Positions 5,997-48,003 of a stretch of 64,000 bases of DNA are shown piece by piece. The number at the start of each line of letters is the position of its first letter. Position 1 is the stretch's first letter. The stretch is from Bacteroidota bacterium (lineage in GTDB: Bacteria > Bacteroidota > Ignavibacteria > Kapaibacteriales > NICIL-2). Under the pieces are notes generated by a model. It searched no databases, had not been told where the DNA came from, and saw nothing but the letters and a program-made list of their open reading frames with translations. Location: contig JAIBAE010000003.1 of assembly GCA_019695345.1 (NCBI GenBank), positions 1-64,000 on the forward strand, in the 5' to 3' direction. A program made the position numbers and the translations under genes.

Positions 5997-6165
5997 GTGA
6001 AGTGTGTCCCGATGCCAACAAACAATACGCATGGTGCCGTACATGCAGCGTTTTTTACTCTTGCACGTGTGCCATTTGCCATAACACACTACAGAAAAAC
6101 TGTCATACTACAGCACACTATACAGTCAACGTAAAAACTTAGGTAGTTGTGCAACAGCTACCCGT
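5997..6165 (+). repeat. Repeat module B, copy 1 (Cys-rich frame)
   Basis: About 170 bp shared with 47822-48003 (minus) and, in part, 37030-37151 (minus). All copies end in a 21-bp near-palindrome (GGTAGTTGTGCAACAGCTACC here, plus strand) directly abutting a GTTAGC cassette border. Each keeps one frame open to a stop, reading CPDANKQ, two CxxC pairs and HYTVNVKT. In this copy the frame is preceded by a stop and lacks an ATG, so I do not call a gene. Confidence 0.8.
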
Positions 6166-7506: not shown

Positions 7507-10290
7507 TTATACAGTTTGTGGTTGTGTTTTGAACTTGCCTTTGCTTTTGCGAATGTTTGCCGCAACTACTTTGTATTCGGGGCAGAGTGCTTCGCTATCG
7601 TGTTGGCTGCTGGTAATGTTGTTTATCATGAGTTCGGGGAAGTGGAATGTTGTGCTCATGATACCCGGTTTTACTTCGGTTGTGATGCGCGCTTTTATGT
7701 CAACTTTCCCGCGGGGCGATTCTACACATACCATATCGCCTTCTTCAATAAAGTGGCGCGCGGCATCTTCCGGGTTGATGAGTAATACATCTTCCGTTAA
7801 GATTTTTACGTTGTTGGTGCGGCGCGTCATGGTTCCGGAGTTGTAATGTTCTAACTCGCGGTTGGTTGTTATGATGTACGGATATTTGTCTGCGTGTTGT
7901 TTGGTTTCTTCGGTTTCTTTATACGGTGCAAAGTGGAATTTACCAAGCCCGCGTTTAAATGTTTCGGTGTGGAGTATTTCCGTTCCGTTTCCGTTTGGTG
8001 CAACCGGCCATTGTTTGCCGTTGTTACCAAGTTCGTTCCATTTAACACCGGCAAAGAACGGCACAATGCGCGATACTTCCTGCAAAACAGTATCGGGATG
8101 ATACTCGGGTTGTGCAAAGCCCATGCGGTTCATAATGTCCACCATTATTTGTCCGTCGGGTTTTGTGCCTTCTATTGGCTCTACAACTTTTTGCACTCGT
8201 TGAATTCTGCGCTCGCCGTTGGTAAAGGTTCCGCTTTTTTCTAAGAACGATGCCGCAGGTAATACAACATCGGCAAGTTTACATGTTTCGGTCATGAATA
8301 TTTCTTGCACAACAACTAACTCGAGTTTGTTTAGTGCAGAAACTACCAATTGTGTGTTGGGGTCGGTTTGTGCAACGTCTTCGCCCATTAGCCATATAGC
8401 TTTGAGTTTTCCGGCAAAGGCGGCATCGTACATTTCGGGAATTTTTAATCCTTTACCTATTGGGATAGGCACACCATAAAACTCCGAGTACATTTTATTG
8501 ATTTCCGGATTGTATGCATCAAGATAGCCCGCACCTTGGTGTGGCTGACATCCCATATCGGCTGCGCCTTGTACGTTGTTCTGCCCGCGTAATGGGTTAA
8601 CACCAACACCACGGCGACCGATGTTACCGGTAATCATGGCAAGGTCGGCAATTAACATTACGGTAAACGTTCCCTGGCTGTGTTCGGTAACCCCTAATCC
8701 GTGGAACGACATTGCGTTTGGTGCAGATGCATACGTTATTGCGGCAGAACGCACCAGATGTTTATCTACACCGGTAATGTGTTCAAGTTCATCAATATTA
8801 AGATTAAGAATCTGCTCTTTAAAGCCATCGTATCCTTCGGTTCTGTTTTGGATAAATGCTTTGTCTTCTAACCCCTCGGTAATGATGTAGTATAACATCA
8901 TATTCAGTAATGCAACATTGGTTCCGGGCTTTAACTGTAAGTGATATGTTGCATACCGTGCTAACTCGGTGCGACGTGGGTCGATTACAATTGACGGTTT
9001 ACCTTTCATGGCAAACTGTTTAAGCTTAGCTCCGGTAACAGGGTGTGCATCGGTTGGGTTTGCACCAATAACCATAATGCAATCGGTGTACTTCAAATCA
9101 ATAATGGAATTTGTTGCCGCACCTGTTCCAAACGAGCGTTGCATTCCCAATGCTGTTGGCGAGTGGCACACACGTGCACAGGAATCTATATTGTTTGTTC
9201 CGATAACAGCACGGAAGAACTTCTGCATCAGATAGTTTTCTTCGTTTGTACAACGTGCCGATGAAATACCGGAAATAGAATCGGGTCCGTACTCTTGTTT
9301 TATCTGTGTGAATTTTTCGGCAATGTAATCGTAAGCTTCATCCCACGTAGCAGGTTGAAACTCGCCGTTACGTTTGATAAGCGGCGTGCGTAATCTATCG
9401 GGGTGGTTATAGAACGAAAACGCATACCGACCTTTAAGGCATGTATGCCCTTGGTTTACAGCGGCATCGTACGGTGCCTGAATAGACTTAATGTTGTTGT
9501 TTACCACTGCAACTTCAAGGTTGCAACCAACACCACAGTATGTACAAACGGTCCGAACCTTTTTATCGGCTACAACAGATTTGGATTCAAAGATATCGGA
9601 GATAGCTGAAGTTGGGCATGCTTGTGCGCACGCACCGCAACTAACACAATCGGAATCGGCAAATGTTTGGTCGAGTCCTTTTATAATATGTGCATCAAAC
9701 CCTCTGCCTGCCATACTTAATACAAGCTGCCCCTGAACTTCATCGCATGCACGTACACAACGTGAGCAATTAATACACTTGGAAAAATCCGACGTCATGT
9801 AGGCATGGCTAAGGTCTTTTTGTCTATCTAAATGATTCTTGCCTTCGGGATACCGTACTTTGCGGATACCAACACGGGCGGCAACTGTTTGCAGTTCGCA
9901 GTTATTATTTACTTCGCATGTTAAACAGTCCAACGGGTGGTCGGTTAGTACTAACTCTACTATGTTCTTCCTCAAACGTTCAATTCGGTCGGTATCGGTA
10001 AAGATGTAGGAATCGGGTATTACCGGAGTATGGCATGATGCCTGAACTCTGCGTGAGCCATTTGCCGTAAGTGCAACTTCAACACTACAAACACGGCATG
10101 CACCATAGGGGTCGAGATTCGGTGCATCGCACAGGGTTGGAACGTAATCGTTACCAAAGTGCCTGCGTACAAAGCTGAGAATAGTTTCATTCTCTTGTAC
10201 CGAATATGCAACACCATTGATGTATGCTGTTTTGGTTTCTACGTCCTGTACGGCAACATGATGTCCGTTTGTATATGTAGATGTATTCAT
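7507..10290 (-). CDS. NAD-linked formate dehydrogenase, molybdenum alpha subunit (Cys type)
   Basis: The product is 927 aa and oxidises formate to CO2 at a bis-molybdopterin centre in the cytoplasm. Domains in order: a [2Fe-2S] ferredoxin (Cys54, 65, 68, 86); the His-Cys3 iron-sulfur motif of NuoG-like proteins (H118, C122, C125, C131); two [4Fe-4S] motifs (C172-C182 and C215-C225); the catalytic-domain [4Fe-4S] motif CTYCGVGC (C249-C284); then the molybdopterin domains. The catalytic position in CARVCHSP is Cys375, encoded by TGC, so this is not a selenoprotein. This is the FdsA/NuoG-like layout. The start at 10290 (MNTSTYTNGH) was chosen because it lies 4 bases after the stop of the beta subunit; a longer frame would overlap it. 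Electrons should pass to NAD+ through the beta subunit. Confidence 0.93.
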   Translation of the reverse strand: MNTSTYTNGHHVAVQDVETKTAYINGVAYSVQENETILSFVRRHFGNDYVPTLCDAPNLDPYGACRVCSVEVALTANGSRRVQASCHTPVIPDSYIFTDTDRIERLRKNIVELVLTDHPLDCLTCEVNNNCELQTVAARVGIRKVRYPEGKNHLDRQKDLSHAYMTSDFSKCINCSRCVRACDEVQGQLVLSMAGRGFDAHIIKGLDQTFADSDCVSCGACAQACPTSAISDIFESKSVVADKKVRTVCTYCGVGCNLEVAVVNNNIKSIQAPYDAAVNQGHTCLKGRYAFSFYNHPDRLRTPLIKRNGEFQPATWDEAYDYIAEKFTQIKQEYGPDSISGISSARCTNEENYLMQKFFRAVIGTNNIDSCARVCHSPTALGMQRSFGTGAATNSIIDLKYTDCIMVIGANPTDAHPVTGAKLKQFAMKGKPSIVIDPRRTELARYATYHLQLKPGTNVALLNMMLYYIITEGLEDKAFIQNRTEGYDGFKEQILNLNIDELEHITGVDKHLVRSAAITYASAPNAMSFHGLGVTEHSQGTFTVMLIADLAMITGNIGRRGVGVNPLRGQNNVQGAADMGCQPHQGAGYLDAYNPEINKMYSEFYGVPIPIGKGLKIPEMYDAAFAGKLKAIWLMGEDVAQTDPNTQLVVSALNKLELVVVQEIFMTETCKLADVVLPAASFLEKSGTFTNGERRIQRVQKVVEPIEGTKPDGQIMVDIMNRMGFAQPEYHPDTVLQEVSRIVPFFAGVKWNELGNNGKQWPVAPNGNGTEILHTETFKRGLGKFHFAPYKETEETKQHADKYPYIITTNRELEHYNSGTMTRRTNNVKILTEDVLLINPEDAARHFIEEGDMVCVESPRGKVDIKARITTEVKPGIMSTTFHFPELMINNITSSQHDSEALCPEYKVVAANIRKSKGKFKTQPQTV

Positions 10291-37029: not shown

Positions 37030-37151
37030 ACGGGTAGCTGTTGCACAACTACTAAGTTTTTACGTTGACTGTATAGAGTGCTGTAGTATTATAGTTTTTG
37101 TGTAGTGTGTTATGGCACATAACACAGGTAAAAGTACAAGAAACGGTTTTA
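37030..37151 (-). repeat. Repeat module B, copy 2 (shortened)
   Basis: ACGGGTAGCTGTTGCACAAC followed by the minus-strand Cys-rich frame CTFTCVMCHNTLHKN ... YTVNVKT. Here the frame runs into module A instead of the CPDANKQ part, so B is truncated and fused to A. Confidence 0.78.
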
Positions 37152-43611: not shown

Positions 43612-43657
43612 AAAAAATATCTCGTACATACTACACTCTTTGTAATTTCGCGTCGCT

Positions 43658-43752
43658 CCGTTAGAGGTGCCGTTGGTTTATATAGTGTTAAACGCAACGG
43701 CTGAGATGATACTCTTGGAACCTGATCCGGTTAATACCGGCGTAGGAAAACG
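43658..43752 (+). promoter_or_regulatory. TPP (thi-box) riboswitch
   Basis: P1 pairs CCGTT (43658) with AACGG (43752). Conserved elements are all in place: AGAGGTGCC, the optional P3 arm GTTGGTTTA/TAAACGCAAC, GGCTGAGATGATACTC, ACCTGATCC, P4 CCGGT/ACCGG, and GCGTAGGAA. It senses thiamin pyrophosphate. It stands 67 bases upstream of the TonB-receptor ATG, so TPP should repress that gene. No poly-U terminator hairpin follows, so control of translation initiation is more likely. Confidence 0.95.
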
Positions 43753-43819
43753 GCGTGGATATACCTCCGCACTCTCTCCAACTCTCGGGGCTTCTTGTTT
43801 CACTTTTTCAAGATGCTCT

Positions 43820-46234
43820 ATGATTCACTCTCGTTTTTTATTTGCGGTTTTTATAGTTGGTTGCTGGTTTACAACTTCGCATGCCCAACAACAAAAGAAA
43901 TCCAACCGTAAAGATACTACTGTATATGTTGCTCCGTCGGTTACGGTTACTTCTACCAAAGCAACAGAAGGGAAAAGTCCGGTTACGTTTAACGAACTTA
44001 CTAAAGCAGAACTGCGCGAGCAATACACCGTGCAAGATGTACCCAAACTGCTTTCGGATTTACCCTCTACCGTGTTTTACTCGGAGAATGGAAATGGAAT
44101 CGGGTATTCGTACATTTCGTTACGGGGGTTCGACCAACGCCGTATTGCCGTGTTGGTAAACGGCATTCCCCAAAACGACCCAGAAGACCACAATGTGTAT
44201 TGGATTGACCTGCCCGACCTAAGCAGTTCAGTTGAGAATGTTCAGGTACAACGTGGTGCAGGGTTAGTGAATTACGGTCAGCCCGCAATTGGTGGCTCGA
44301 TTTCTATGATGACCTCTAACTTTGCCAACAAGCGTTTTGTGCGGTTTACAGGCGGCATTGGTTTGCAGGAATACACAGGGTTGGATAATCTTATTCCTAC
44401 CGATGCCCCGGCATTGCACCAATCAAAAACATCGTTGGAAGTATCGTCGGGGTTGGTTGATGAGAAGTACGCAGTGTATGCACGTGTTTCACGAATTGCA
44501 TCGCGCGGATACAGAGATTACTCGTGGGCAGATTTACATAGTTACTTTCTTAGTGCTGTCCGCTTTGATGATAATGTAACAACACAAATAAATGTTTTTG
44601 GCGGACCGTTAGCAGATGGGCTTGCCTACACCGGAATGCCTAAAGAATATATTAACAACCCAACATTGCGCCGAAGTAATCAAAACTATTGGGAGTACGA
44701 TTCTACATTACGCGCAGTTGGGTATTCGGCAAACAGACGTCCGCAGGAGATAGAGAATTTCTCGCAACCGCATTATGAAATACTAAATGATATTACGCTT
44801 AGTGATTCGCTTACGGTAAAATCATCACTTTTTTATTACACGGGCGATGGCTTCTTTGATTTTGACGGTTCGTGGGCAGATGCTGCTACGCTACGTTTAG
44901 ATAAACTTCACAGCGGAATAGATTCTGCCGCACCAACTAATGCAATACTTCGTGCAAGTGTTAGCAACAAACATGGCGGATGGATTCCACGCGTTGTATG
45001 GAAACACACCGATGGCGAGTTAACCGCAGGGGCAGAACTGCGTTGGCATCGTTCCGAACATTGGGGAACAATTTCCTATGCCGAGAATTTACCGGTTGGC
45101 TATAATCCCGATTTCCGAATGTACACCTATAACGGATTGCGAAACATCGCCTCGGTATTTGCACGCGAGCAATACCGTAACTCCGAGAATATTACAACTA
45201 CCATTGAAGCACAGCTGGTGTCATCGGTATATGCAATCAGCAACGAGCGTGCAGGAAACATCTTTACACAGTACACAACAACAGATAATACAACAATTGG
45301 GAATGGCAATGAACTATTCAGAGTGAACTATCTGTTTCTTAATCCGCGTGCCGGAGTTAACTGGCGCATAGATGGCAACAACAGTGCGTATATGTCGGTT
45401 GCATACACACACCGCGAGCCACGTATGGGTAACCTGTACAAAGCCGATGAAGCATATTACTCCGGTGCCGCACCATTATTCGAAACCGATACAACCGGAG
45501 GCGTAACACGCTATAACTTTACCAAACCACTTATCAAACCCGAAAAGTTGTTGGATGTAGAGCTTGGCTATACACATCGCACACAAAGCTATATGGTAGC
45601 GGCAACGGCATACCTTATGGACTTCCGCGATGAGTTAGTAAAAAGTGGTAAGCGCGATATATTTGGCAACCCTATTGATGGTAACGCACCACATGCCCGC
45701 CACATTGGAATAGAGTTGCAAGCAAGTGCTGTTGTACTGCAACACTCACAGCATACACTGGAGGTACTTGCCAATGCAACCATCAGCCAAAACAGATTTT
45801 TAGACTACACGTATAATATTGGTAATGTTGCCATAGACTTAGCAAACACTCCGCAAGGAAAGGGAAATCAGATTGCAGGGTTCCCCGAGCAGATGGCAAA
45901 CGTATCTTTGCGTTATACATACAACGGGCTTACGGCGCAGGTTACAGGCAAGTACGTCGGCGAGATGCGTAGCGATAACTTTGGCGAAAACATCAGCTAC
46001 TATCAAAGTCTGGGTGCGGCAATTCCCTATGCCGATAACCGCATAGACCCTTACACGGTTATTAACGCAAACATTGGATACCGAATCAACAATATACTTT
46101 CGCTCAACAGTCTGCGGTTACAACTGCAAGTAAACAATCTTTCTAATCAGTTATATGCAGCGGGTGCAAACGGCGCAGAGTTCTTTCCCGCAGCCGAACG
46201 TAACTGGTATCTTGGAATTGAAGCAGAATTATAA
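43820..46234 (+). CDS. TonB-dependent outer-membrane receptor, probable thiamin uptake
   Basis: The product is 804 aa. The start at 43820 opens signal peptide MIHSRFLFAVFIVGCWFTTS and lies after the riboswitch; an upstream frame that runs through the aptamer is not translated. Residues ~55-180 are the plug domain (VPKLLSDLPSTVFYSENGNG, YISLRGFDQRRIAVLVNGIP, GAGLVNYGQPAIGGSISMMT). The rest is a 22-strand barrel ending in an aromatic-rich strand (NWYLGIEAEL). It imports a ligand across the outer membrane with energy from TonB. The thi-box upstream makes thiamin or a precursor the likely substrate, as for the thi-box-controlled receptors of Bacteroides. Confidence 0.93.
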   Translation: MIHSRFLFAVFIVGCWFTTSHAQQQKKSNRKDTTVYVAPSVTVTSTKATEGKSPVTFNELTKAELREQYTVQDVPKLLSDLPSTVFYSENGNGIGYSYISLRGFDQRRIAVLVNGIPQNDPEDHNVYWIDLPDLSSSVENVQVQRGAGLVNYGQPAIGGSISMMTSNFANKRFVRFTGGIGLQEYTGLDNLIPTDAPALHQSKTSLEVSSGLVDEKYAVYARVSRIASRGYRDYSWADLHSYFLSAVRFDDNVTTQINVFGGPLADGLAYTGMPKEYINNPTLRRSNQNYWEYDSTLRAVGYSANRRPQEIENFSQPHYEILNDITLSDSLTVKSSLFYYTGDGFFDFDGSWADAATLRLDKLHSGIDSAAPTNAILRASVSNKHGGWIPRVVWKHTDGELTAGAELRWHRSEHWGTISYAENLPVGYNPDFRMYTYNGLRNIASVFAREQYRNSENITTTIEAQLVSSVYAISNERAGNIFTQYTTTDNTTIGNGNELFRVNYLFLNPRAGVNWRIDGNNSAYMSVAYTHREPRMGNLYKADEAYYSGAAPLFETDTTGGVTRYNFTKPLIKPEKLLDVELGYTHRTQSYMVAATAYLMDFRDELVKSGKRDIFGNPIDGNAPHARHIGIELQASAVVLQHSQHTLEVLANATISQNRFLDYTYNIGNVAIDLANTPQGKGNQIAGFPEQMANVSLRYTYNGLTAQVTGKYVGEMRSDNFGENISYYQSLGAAIPYADNRIDPYTVINANIGYRINNILSLNSLRLQLQVNNLSNQLYAAGANGAEFFPAAERNWYLGIEAEL

Positions 46235-46454: not shown

Positions 46455-46922
46455 GTTAGCACCAATGGTAAGACGACACAACAACAGACCAATGATAAAC
46501 ATAAAGGCAATATACTTTTTGACACTTTTGACTTTCACATTAACCGCTTGTGGACAGACTAAAGGTGACAGAACTATTCTTGGAAAAGAATTCGCTGAGC
46601 AGGAACTTAAATCTTCACTTGCCGACAAATCAAAGCACAACGTAATTGACAACAAGACAGCAATTATTAAAGACAGTCTAACCGCAATAAATGTAGCCGA
46701 ACCAATCCTTTTCAGTATTTACGGCAAAGACAACATAACTAAACAACGACCTTACGAAGTTTATTTCAAAGACAATTATTGGTTAATTACTGGGACACTT
46801 CCTTCGGGTTGGAAAGGCGGGACATTTCTAATTATCATTGACTCACGAGACTGTAAGGTTATTAGAATATCTCACGGAAAATGACAAGGACAATGCGACA
46901 CGAATGAACCACTGGTGCTAAC
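46455..46922 (+). mobile_element. Cassette-like unit with an immunity-like lipoprotein (islet V)
   Basis: Starts GTTAGCACCAATGG (46455) and ends CCACTGGTGCTAAC (46922): 13 of 14 complementary. The left flank TGCGGCAATCCTAAC is shared with islet I. The right end is the R'' part of the attC-like site at 46917-47047. Confidence 0.55.
46492..46884 (+). CDS. NTF2-fold immunity-like lipoprotein (cassette gene)
   Basis: The product is 130 aa with a lipoprotein signal (FLTLLTFTLTAC, lipobox LTAC). The C-terminal ~60 residues, ILFSIYGKDNITKQRPYEVY, then YWLITGTLPSGWKGGTFLII and KVIRISHGK, match what I know of NTF2-fold immunity proteins frequent in Bacteroidota polymorphic-toxin loci. No toxin gene is adjacent. 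As a cassette it may be an orphan immunity gene giving protection against neighbours' toxins (inference). ATG 46465 is an alternative start. Confidence 0.8.
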   Translation: MINIKAIYFLTLLTFTLTACGQTKGDRTILGKEFAEQELKSSLADKSKHNVIDNKTAIIKDSLTAINVAEPILFSIYGKDNITKQRPYEVYFKDNYWLITGTLPSGWKGGTFLIIIDSRDCKVIRISHGK

Positions 46923-47047
46923 AGGCGTTTGGCAAAAAAGCGGGTTCTGTGCTTAAATGAAGCTTTGTGCTTCGTATCAAGTTCATTACTGGCAGACAGT
47001 TTAGTACTTCGAAATCCGCTTCTTCGCCAAGCGCCAAACCGTTAAGG
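46917..47047 (+). other. attC-like recombination site
   Basis: GCTAAC (46917-46922) and GTTAAG (47041-47046) are the outer simple-site-like ends. Inside them AGGCGTTTGGCAAAAAAGCG (46923) pairs imperfectly with CGCTTCTTCGCCAAGCGCC (47017-47035). The centre (~46944-47015) has its own AAGCTTTGTGCTT hairpin. Total 131 bp, in the attC size range, with arms that pair but carry mismatches as real attC sites do. It lies exactly between two short genes. Confidence 0.6.
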
Positions 47048-47821
47048 GCAAGTTTTGACACGTGAACCAACCATTCTACATATTGCTCATTGCACTTTTG
47101 TTGACAGCTTGTAACCAAAAGGGCTCGACATCGACTGACAACAAAATAGCAGACACTTTAACCACCATAAATCTCCCTGACAAACCTGGCGTGCAGTCGA
47201 AAGTTGAAAATGATACTATATTATATTCTGACACGACTGTTATTTTAGGCAGAACTTATTACGCGTATTCATTACGGAATGACCTATTCCTAATAAAAGA
47301 TAAGCAAGATGACACTCTGCTTATCGAAAAAGAACTTCCTCCCAATTTCGAGTTTAAAGATTTTAATGGTGATGGATGTGAAGATGTCATGTTGTATCAT
47401 TATTCTTCAAATACAGGTGGTGTATATGATTTAATACTTTATGACAGAGTGAAAAAAACATTCAGGTTTATAGAAAATTTCCCCGATTTCCCTGAACCAA
47501 TAAAAATTAGAAATACTAAATTCTATTATTCATATCATAAAAGCGGTTGCGCGGATATGAATTGGGATAGCGATTTATTCTATATTGATAACTTCAAAAC
47601 AATTAGAATTGGGAACATATCTGGAGAAGGGTGTAATAATAGAAACATGAAAGATGGCATTTATATCTACAAGATTAGAGGCAAGAAAGAAACCCTTTTT
47701 ACAACTTTACCAATCTCTACAATTGAAAAATACACAGATTACAAATGGGGTTTTATAAAGGAGTATTGGACAAATAACTGCAATGATTTTTCCAAATGAC
47801 AATAGCAAATCAGCCGCTAAC
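47042..47821 (+). mobile_element. Second cassette-like unit of islet V
   Basis: Begins TTAAGGGC after the attC-like junction and ends GCCGCTAAC (47813-47821), complementary at 7 of 9 to its own GTTAAGGGC start. One gene fills it. The right end runs into module B with ACGGGTAGC as in the other two islets. Confidence 0.45.
47062..47799 (+). CDS. Lipoprotein of unknown function (cassette gene, GTG start)
   Basis: The product is 245 aa with signal and lipobox YILLIALLLTAC. Mid-protein, FKDFNGDGCEDVMLYHY is a Ca-binding-like FG-GAP/EF-loop motif (DxNxDxxxD). The rest is beta-rich, ending in an Asn/Tyr-rich stretch. Translation probably begins at GTG 47062, the only start that opens the signal peptide, 15 bases after the attC-like site. 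AT-rich. Function unknown. Confidence 0.75.
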   Translation: MNQPFYILLIALLLTACNQKGSTSTDNKIADTLTTINLPDKPGVQSKVENDTILYSDTTVILGRTYYAYSLRNDLFLIKDKQDDTLLIEKELPPNFEFKDFNGDGCEDVMLYHYSSNTGGVYDLILYDRVKKTFRFIENFPDFPEPIKIRNTKFYYSYHKSGCADMNWDSDLFYIDNFKTIRIGNISGEGCNNRNMKDGIYIYKIRGKKETLFTTLPISTIEKYTDYKWGFIKEYWTNNCNDFSK

Positions 47822-48003
47822 ACGGGTAGCTGTTGCACAACTACCTAAGTTTTTACGTTGACTGTATAGTGTGCTGTAGTATGATAGTTTTTCTGTAGTG
47901 TGTTATGGCACATGGCACACGTAAAAGAGTAAGAAACGGTGCATGAACCGCAGTATGTGTGTTGTTTGTTGGCATCGGGGCACACTTCACCAAACCACAA
48001 TCC
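47822..48003 (-). repeat. Repeat module B, copy 3 (fullest)
   Basis: ACGGGTAGCTGTTGCACAAC, then on the minus strand the frame GEVCPDANKQHTYCGSC ... TCAMCHNTLQKN ... HYTVNVKT. It matches 5997-6165 in inverse order at most positions. An ATG-started minus frame (47845-48078) covers it but begins inside R1 copy 19. Confidence 0.82.

Follow-up and report, generated by a model that had tools for sequence, protein, structure and literature searches.

In canonical attC sites, the R''-L'' arm has two or three extrahelical bases, and the first of these mainly sets the choice of strand (PMC2727003). The I2 insert is held to give integron integrases their capacity for single-strand recombination; it is reported from no other protein, intermediates are lacking, and its deletion kills IntI1 (PMC7790495). 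For Bacteroidota, IntegronFinder 2.0 lists one complete Bacteroidetes integron, in Salinibacter ruber, with only In0 found before (PMC9024848), and the taxon-specific attC models list no member of the phylum (PMC8352920). Among the known systems closest to the one described below is the 'Integron-like' subgroup of simple tyrosine recombinases of Smyshlyaev et al. 2021; where members lacking the insertion are concerned, the consulted parts of that paper report neither cassettes nor sites (PMC8138268). We found no description of cassette sites with I2-less integrases in the openly licensed PMC literature, and a prior description elsewhere is possible.

Here, we analyzed a candidate site in a 64,000-nucleotide stretch of a Bacteroidota genome (GCA_019695345.1, contig JAIBAE010000003.1, positions 1 to 64,000; "the window"), where a preliminary description had proposed an attC-like palindrome between two cassette genes. 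That finding is real and was understated: the element is very probably the attC-equivalent of an integron-like platform whose recombinase lacks I2. As a putative cassette site, it lacks two of the features that define canonical integrons (the I2 insert in the enzyme and the extrahelical bases in the site) and shows others. The data are best read as a variant of the integron that is widespread in Bacteroidota and has apparently not been described before.

The window element and its copies

The ends and arms named in the preliminary description (GCTAAC, GGCGTTTGGC, GCCAAGCGCC and GTTAAG) were all found in place on reading the window letters (Table 1). The fold energy of the element is -21.9 kcal/mol, compared with -14.6 +/- 2.6 kcal/mol in shuffles (z -2.8), and on either strand its fold beats 199 of 200 shuffles. 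A chance origin of the palindrome is excluded because homologous copies exist, including a nearly identical one (91%, E 1e-44) on contig C42 of the same genome and others in 13 of the 40 relatives searched. Within the window's genome, BLAST returns four further places and covariance model R1, whose training set includes the window copy, returns 12-14 (at least 12 copies).

Table 1. Coordinates of the element, its parts and the associated cassettes in the window
Feature	Position	Strand	Basis
Cassette 1, from start GTTAGCACCA to base before GTT of its own R'	46455..47040	+	Own-start match
Cassette 1 gene, predicted lipoprotein with NTF2-fold immunity domain (PF15631)	46492..46884	+	Pfam 83.5 bits, cut-off 26
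attC-like recombination site, whole (putative)	46917..47046	+	Covariance model R1, homologues, covariation
Extended R'' box TGGTGCTAAC	46913..46922	+	Complementary to own cassette start
Left end GCTAAC	46917-46922	+	Read in sequence
L'' arm GGCGTTTGGC	46924..46933	+	Pairs with 47026-47035; covarying columns 8-17 of alignment A1
Inner stem, left arm GCGG	46940..46943	+	Pairs with 47016-47019; covarying columns 24-27 of A1
Terminal (central) region	46944..47015	+	Alignment A1 and array elements
Inner stem, right arm CCGC	47016..47019	+	Covariation in A1
L' arm GCCAAGCGCC	47026..47035	+	Covariation in A1
Right-hand spacer AAACC (left-hand spacer, a single A)	47036..47040	+	Sequence and bottom-strand folds
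R' box GTTAAG	47041..47046	+	Putative exchange point at its 5' side; GTT part of junction
Cassette 2 gene, predicted lipoprotein with XAC2610-related domain	47062..47799	+	NCBIfam NF047539 41.4 bits, cut-off 35
Cassette 2 site remnant: R'' GCCGCTAAC, ACGG, then insertion-end GTAGC	47813..47830	+	Junction type

We aligned 16 full copies by sequence alone (alignment A1). These share the ends TAACA...CGTTA and a conserved centre, and their arms differ (types include AGGCGTTTGGC, AGCACCTACCC and ACGGGTTTTGC) yet remain complementary. Across the 16 copies, 88.9% of cells pair in the named 22-pair structure, and 62 cells are double-changed, compared with 22.9 +/- 3.3 in shuffled and 6-16 in slid controls; because the arms covary well above both kinds of control, we conclude that the hairpin structure is under selection. 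The attC-like R and L boxes and the long terminal region are borne out as well, and the element shows the hairpin with conserved arm pairing expected of an attC. Its centre of roughly 70 bases had been called variable, which holds across the wider family, where more distant array members vary there too, but not among the close copies of A1.

A further part of the original proposal was not supported. In 78 bottom-strand folds we found no recurrent extrahelical base; the features seen instead are a 1x1 mismatch within the L stem, which is frequent, and a bulge of 4 nt on the R'-L' side. The "extra unpaired bases" likened to those of attC are actually symmetric mismatches plus an asymmetric spacer. 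As a control, a standard integron in G001, a genome from the family of the window's genome, has a 60-bp attC with two extrahelical bases. We infer that the element folds as a single strand, and folding and use of the bottom strand are plausible: outside one conserved mismatch position, G-T pairs number 64 on the bottom and 32 on the top strand, an excess that, counted over copies that are not independent, weakly favours the bottom strand.

Elements were detected in at least 170 of 393 sampled Bacteroidota genomes. An R1 search of 30 genomes from other phyla with more distant recombinase relatives, a set that held no positive control, returned no element. Two chimeric elements (L017 7329-7457 on C18, and L096 2504-2635 in G023) combine arms of different types and have lost pairing; either these sites are dead or they arose when homologous recombination took place in the conserved centre.

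Cassette layout and boundaries

A cassette of a true integron has passed through a circular form in which its first bases were joined to its own attC, and because of this joining R'' is expected to match the start of its own cassette rather than the current right neighbour. Cassettes here are laid out as GTT, ORF and element, and across 55 neighbouring pairs R'' matches its own start at 4.18 of 6 variable positions, with 60% of pairs at 5 or more. The corresponding values are 2.42 of 6 (1.8% at 5 or more) for the right neighbour and 2.08 of 6 (3.1%) for unrelated elements. An exact 9-nt own-start was present within 3.5 kb upstream of 49 of 76 elements, as opposed to 3.0% in a control with elements of other genomes. 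The 49 cassettes delimited in this way have a median length of 871 bp; in 45 of them the longest ORF lies on the element strand, and the ORFs begin about 44 nt past the junction and stop about 18 nt ahead of R''. Along with the arrays described below, these are the cassettes that characterize integrons, with a single gene apiece, a common orientation and a site at the end of each. AAC and GTT are nearly invariant in the R boxes, with outer bases that vary freely, compared with the RYYYAAC/GTTRRRY of attC. We read the complementarity between R'' and own start as the imprint of a circular cassette, and it is as such an imprint in sequence that exchange at GTT via a circular intermediate, as in integrons, can be recognized here. 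Cassettes also tend to begin GTTRNNNGCAAT...AAAAGACGAC, so that a leader some 30 nt long is common to them; examples are window 46455-46480 and L015 8838-8865.

Within the window, GTTAGCACCA at 46455 is a 10/10 reverse complement of the extended R'' box, with one other matching place in the window, and the ORF of cassette 1 stops 38 nt ahead of R''. The earlier claim of a cassette recombination site between two cassette genes is supported. The stretch holds one full and one truncated site, the latter of a junction type (R'', ACGG, insertion end) that recurs at about 10 places in the window's genome; a further element lies at C41:77037. This arrangement suggests a detached two-cassette, CALIN-like piece in which an insertion element has interrupted the second site. 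A second full site at 47815-47868 (54 nt) was considered and rejected, its fold being no better than chance (z -0.7) and the segment being the insertion end.

The insertion element, with ends GTAGCTGTTGCACAACTAC / GTAGTTGTGCAACATGCAC, sits inside sites at window 47826-47844, 37039-37052 and 6143-6156 and also occurs on contigs C7, C13, C18, C42, C44, C45, C89, C95, C145 and C160. Nearly all copies lie between R'' and L'' in one orientation, a habit that resembles that of IS1111-attC elements. Its 14-mer end occurs 18 times in the window's genome (reversed control, 0), and we identified no transposase for it. A TPP riboswitch (43653-43765, + strand, 74.7 bits) sits right before the long ORF that ends at 46234, immediately 5' of the two cassettes.

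Recombinase loci and the enzyme

When 99 genomes of the order were searched with the integron integrase model TIGR02249, three true IntI were recovered, together with another set of proteins whose match is split in two because the middle of the model has no counterpart. Element arrays in one orientation adjoin these two-piece recombinases, with 13 elements in G015, 6 in G017 and about 8 in G037, and in Flavobacterium enshiense ten same-strand elements lie behind the recombinase. At the named Bacteroidota loci nearly all element matches are downstream on the recombinase strand; in family f3 (G037, G051, G082, G025) the array instead lies on the side from which the recombinase gene points away. 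Among the cargo of the G017 array (L069) and of G025 (L084) are a GmrSD-type restriction enzyme and a nucleotidyltransferase with kinship to lincosamide and streptomycin adenylyltransferases; the first cassette in G025 is a nucleotidyltransferase related to that one.

Using R'' of the first element as bait, we located the start of the first cassette at about 20 loci, the window's genome included. It lies 67-240 nt away from the recombinase gene and is preceded by a conserved attI-like core, about TGCGTATATAaa.gA|GTTR. The conserved core and the exact first-cassette starts give these loci the attI beside the integrase that is expected of an integron. In two of them (G015 and G049) the 1000 bp that lead up to GTT are identical and the sequence past it is unrelated (25% alike), and in another pair (G076 and G092) the first cassettes diverge at the base after GTT. 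The G015 and G049 loci (L067 and L085) come from two species of one genus and share an identical recombinase and attI region of at least 1 kb with different cassettes, reflecting either recent transfer or strong conservation. In the window's genome, the recombinase gene (C37 7625-8743) is followed by the attI core, a cassette start at 8838 and then the contig end; because C37 ends before any element behind its attI, the link between element and recombinase in this genome rests on homology.

Elements and recombinase also co-occur. In the order, 18 of 20 genomes with the recombinase have elements vs. 16 of 79 without it (p 1e-8, odds ratio 35, uncorrected for kinship), and in the phylum the counts are 97 of 126 vs. 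73 of 267 (p 1e-20, odds ratio 8.9, likewise uncorrected for kinship). The 73 element-bearing genomes lack a recombinase at a strict cut-off, which may be due to gaps in draft assemblies, to loss of the integrase or to another enzyme that moves the cassettes. At one locus (L075, G094:C29), an element lies amid two adjacent, closely similar recombinases of the wider group, outside the main tree clade.

The recombinase retains the catalytic residues R, K, H-R, H and Y, and has 20 residues where V. cholerae IntI has 64, in the region of the I2 insert. The C37 protein matches TIGR02249 in two pieces (9-179 and 238-315), below cut-off, and the IntI-specific I2 insert is absent in the window's genome. 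The C37 protein scores above the cut-off of NCBI NF040815 ('site-specific tyrosine recombinase/integron integrase'), a model with the short name XerA_Arch that is silent on cassettes. For an AlphaFold2 model of a Flavobacterium member (pLDDT 82, pTM 0.53), the best match among solved structures to the predicted fold is the integron integrase 2A3V (E 2.7e-15). In the tree, IntI form one clade (100) and the array-associated proteins another (SH-aLRT 85, modest support), both apart from host Xer (99) and not nested in each other. Most sampled recombinases carry about 70 extra N-terminal residues related to HARP (Pfam match in 4 of 20 members, best E 6.8e-7; PDB 4O66 profile E 0.014), and recombinases without this domain also have arrays; that it reads the hairpin is a guess.

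Rival readings and comparison with known systems

In the mechanism we favour, the cassette at 46455-47040 would end in an imperfect hairpin of about 130 nt, and in the circular cassette the R'' flank would pair with the cassette's own first bases, completing the site. A tyrosine recombinase would then join the cassette 5' of GTT, either into the attI-like core or beside another element. The enzyme would be an I2-less relative of integron integrases, represented in this genome by the C37 member with attI and a first cassette start behind it, and catalysis by this recombinase is inferred from these associations. The fuller proposal, that Bacteroidota hold a second widespread integron branch in which an I2-less integrase recombines folded sites without extrahelical bases, seems to us somewhat better than an even bet. 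Recognition in such a branch would go through the asymmetric spacer, the strand-specific stem mismatch and, mostly, the added HARP-like domain.

The strongest rival, still unlikely, keeps the same recombinase and lets it act on duplex DNA, with the arms serving as two inverted enzyme-binding sites as in Xer sites. It draws on the absence of both I2 and extrahelical bases, through which a folded strand is known to be read, and on Xer enzymes, which lack I2 and act on duplex DNA (PMC7790495). Against it, the arms change freely with complementarity kept, which duplex recognition does not require, and R'' stays complementary to its own cassette start over 9-10 nt in boxes that are otherwise dissimilar. 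Far less probable, and the least credible of the readings weighed here, is that gene ends carry a dispersed REP/MITE-like repeat or a terminator-type RNA hairpin. A multicopy hairpin close behind stop codons would suit it, and covariation also suits RNA, but it does not predict that R'' should match the beginning of the gene unit before it, or that junctions should fall exactly at an attI next to a recombinase gene; Rfam holds no family matching the element, and top-strand G-U pairs are not favoured. We dropped the REP/MITE reading after the own-start test.

That the element is an ordinary attC served by a standard, I2-bearing IntI, with the I2-less recombinase a bystander, is very improbable. 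We counted in its favour the ends of the element, which we take to resemble VCR-type attC, and canonical IntI does occur in 3 of the 99 genomes of the order, including G021, which also has elements. On the other side, the window's genome has no IntI above the family cut-off (an IntI1 family search gave partial matches only), and a standard IntI was rejected there as the partner. Around the IntI genes of G001, G021 and G013, R1 detects no element, the G001 IntI array has the canonical 60-bp attC described above, and elements track the I2-less enzyme across genomes. Since the associated recombinase is not a standard IntI, an IntI1 assay could fail even on a functional site.

If the favoured reading is true, a large unseen cassette pool exists, with elements in at least 43% of the 393 sampled genomes of the phylum. 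A natural cassette platform without I2 or extrahelical bases would also make the role of I2 in single-strand recombination directly testable.

Compared with attC sites such as the Vibrio cholerae VCR, the elements have the same TAAC...GTTA ends, R and L boxes and terminal structure, the same placement at the 3' end of a single-gene cassette and putative exchange next to GTT, and their length falls within the attC range of 57-142 nt (PMC2727003). Unlike attC, they have no recurrent extrahelical bases, their spacers are 1 and 5 nt, and their R boxes are variable, with 9-10 nt complementary to the start of their own cassette. The recombinase shares with IntI (VchIntIA, 2A3V) the C-terminal SPxDxL end and the catalytic residues; unlike IntI, it is missing the I2 insert, and most sampled members add the HARP-like N-terminal domain, a relative of the HARP domain of SMARCAL1 (PF07443, 4O66) that is here fused to a recombinase. 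Site and enzyme are thus both without the two features that interact in canonical integrons, since the one has no extrahelical bases and the other no I2, and the name attC is probably right in function but not in family detail.
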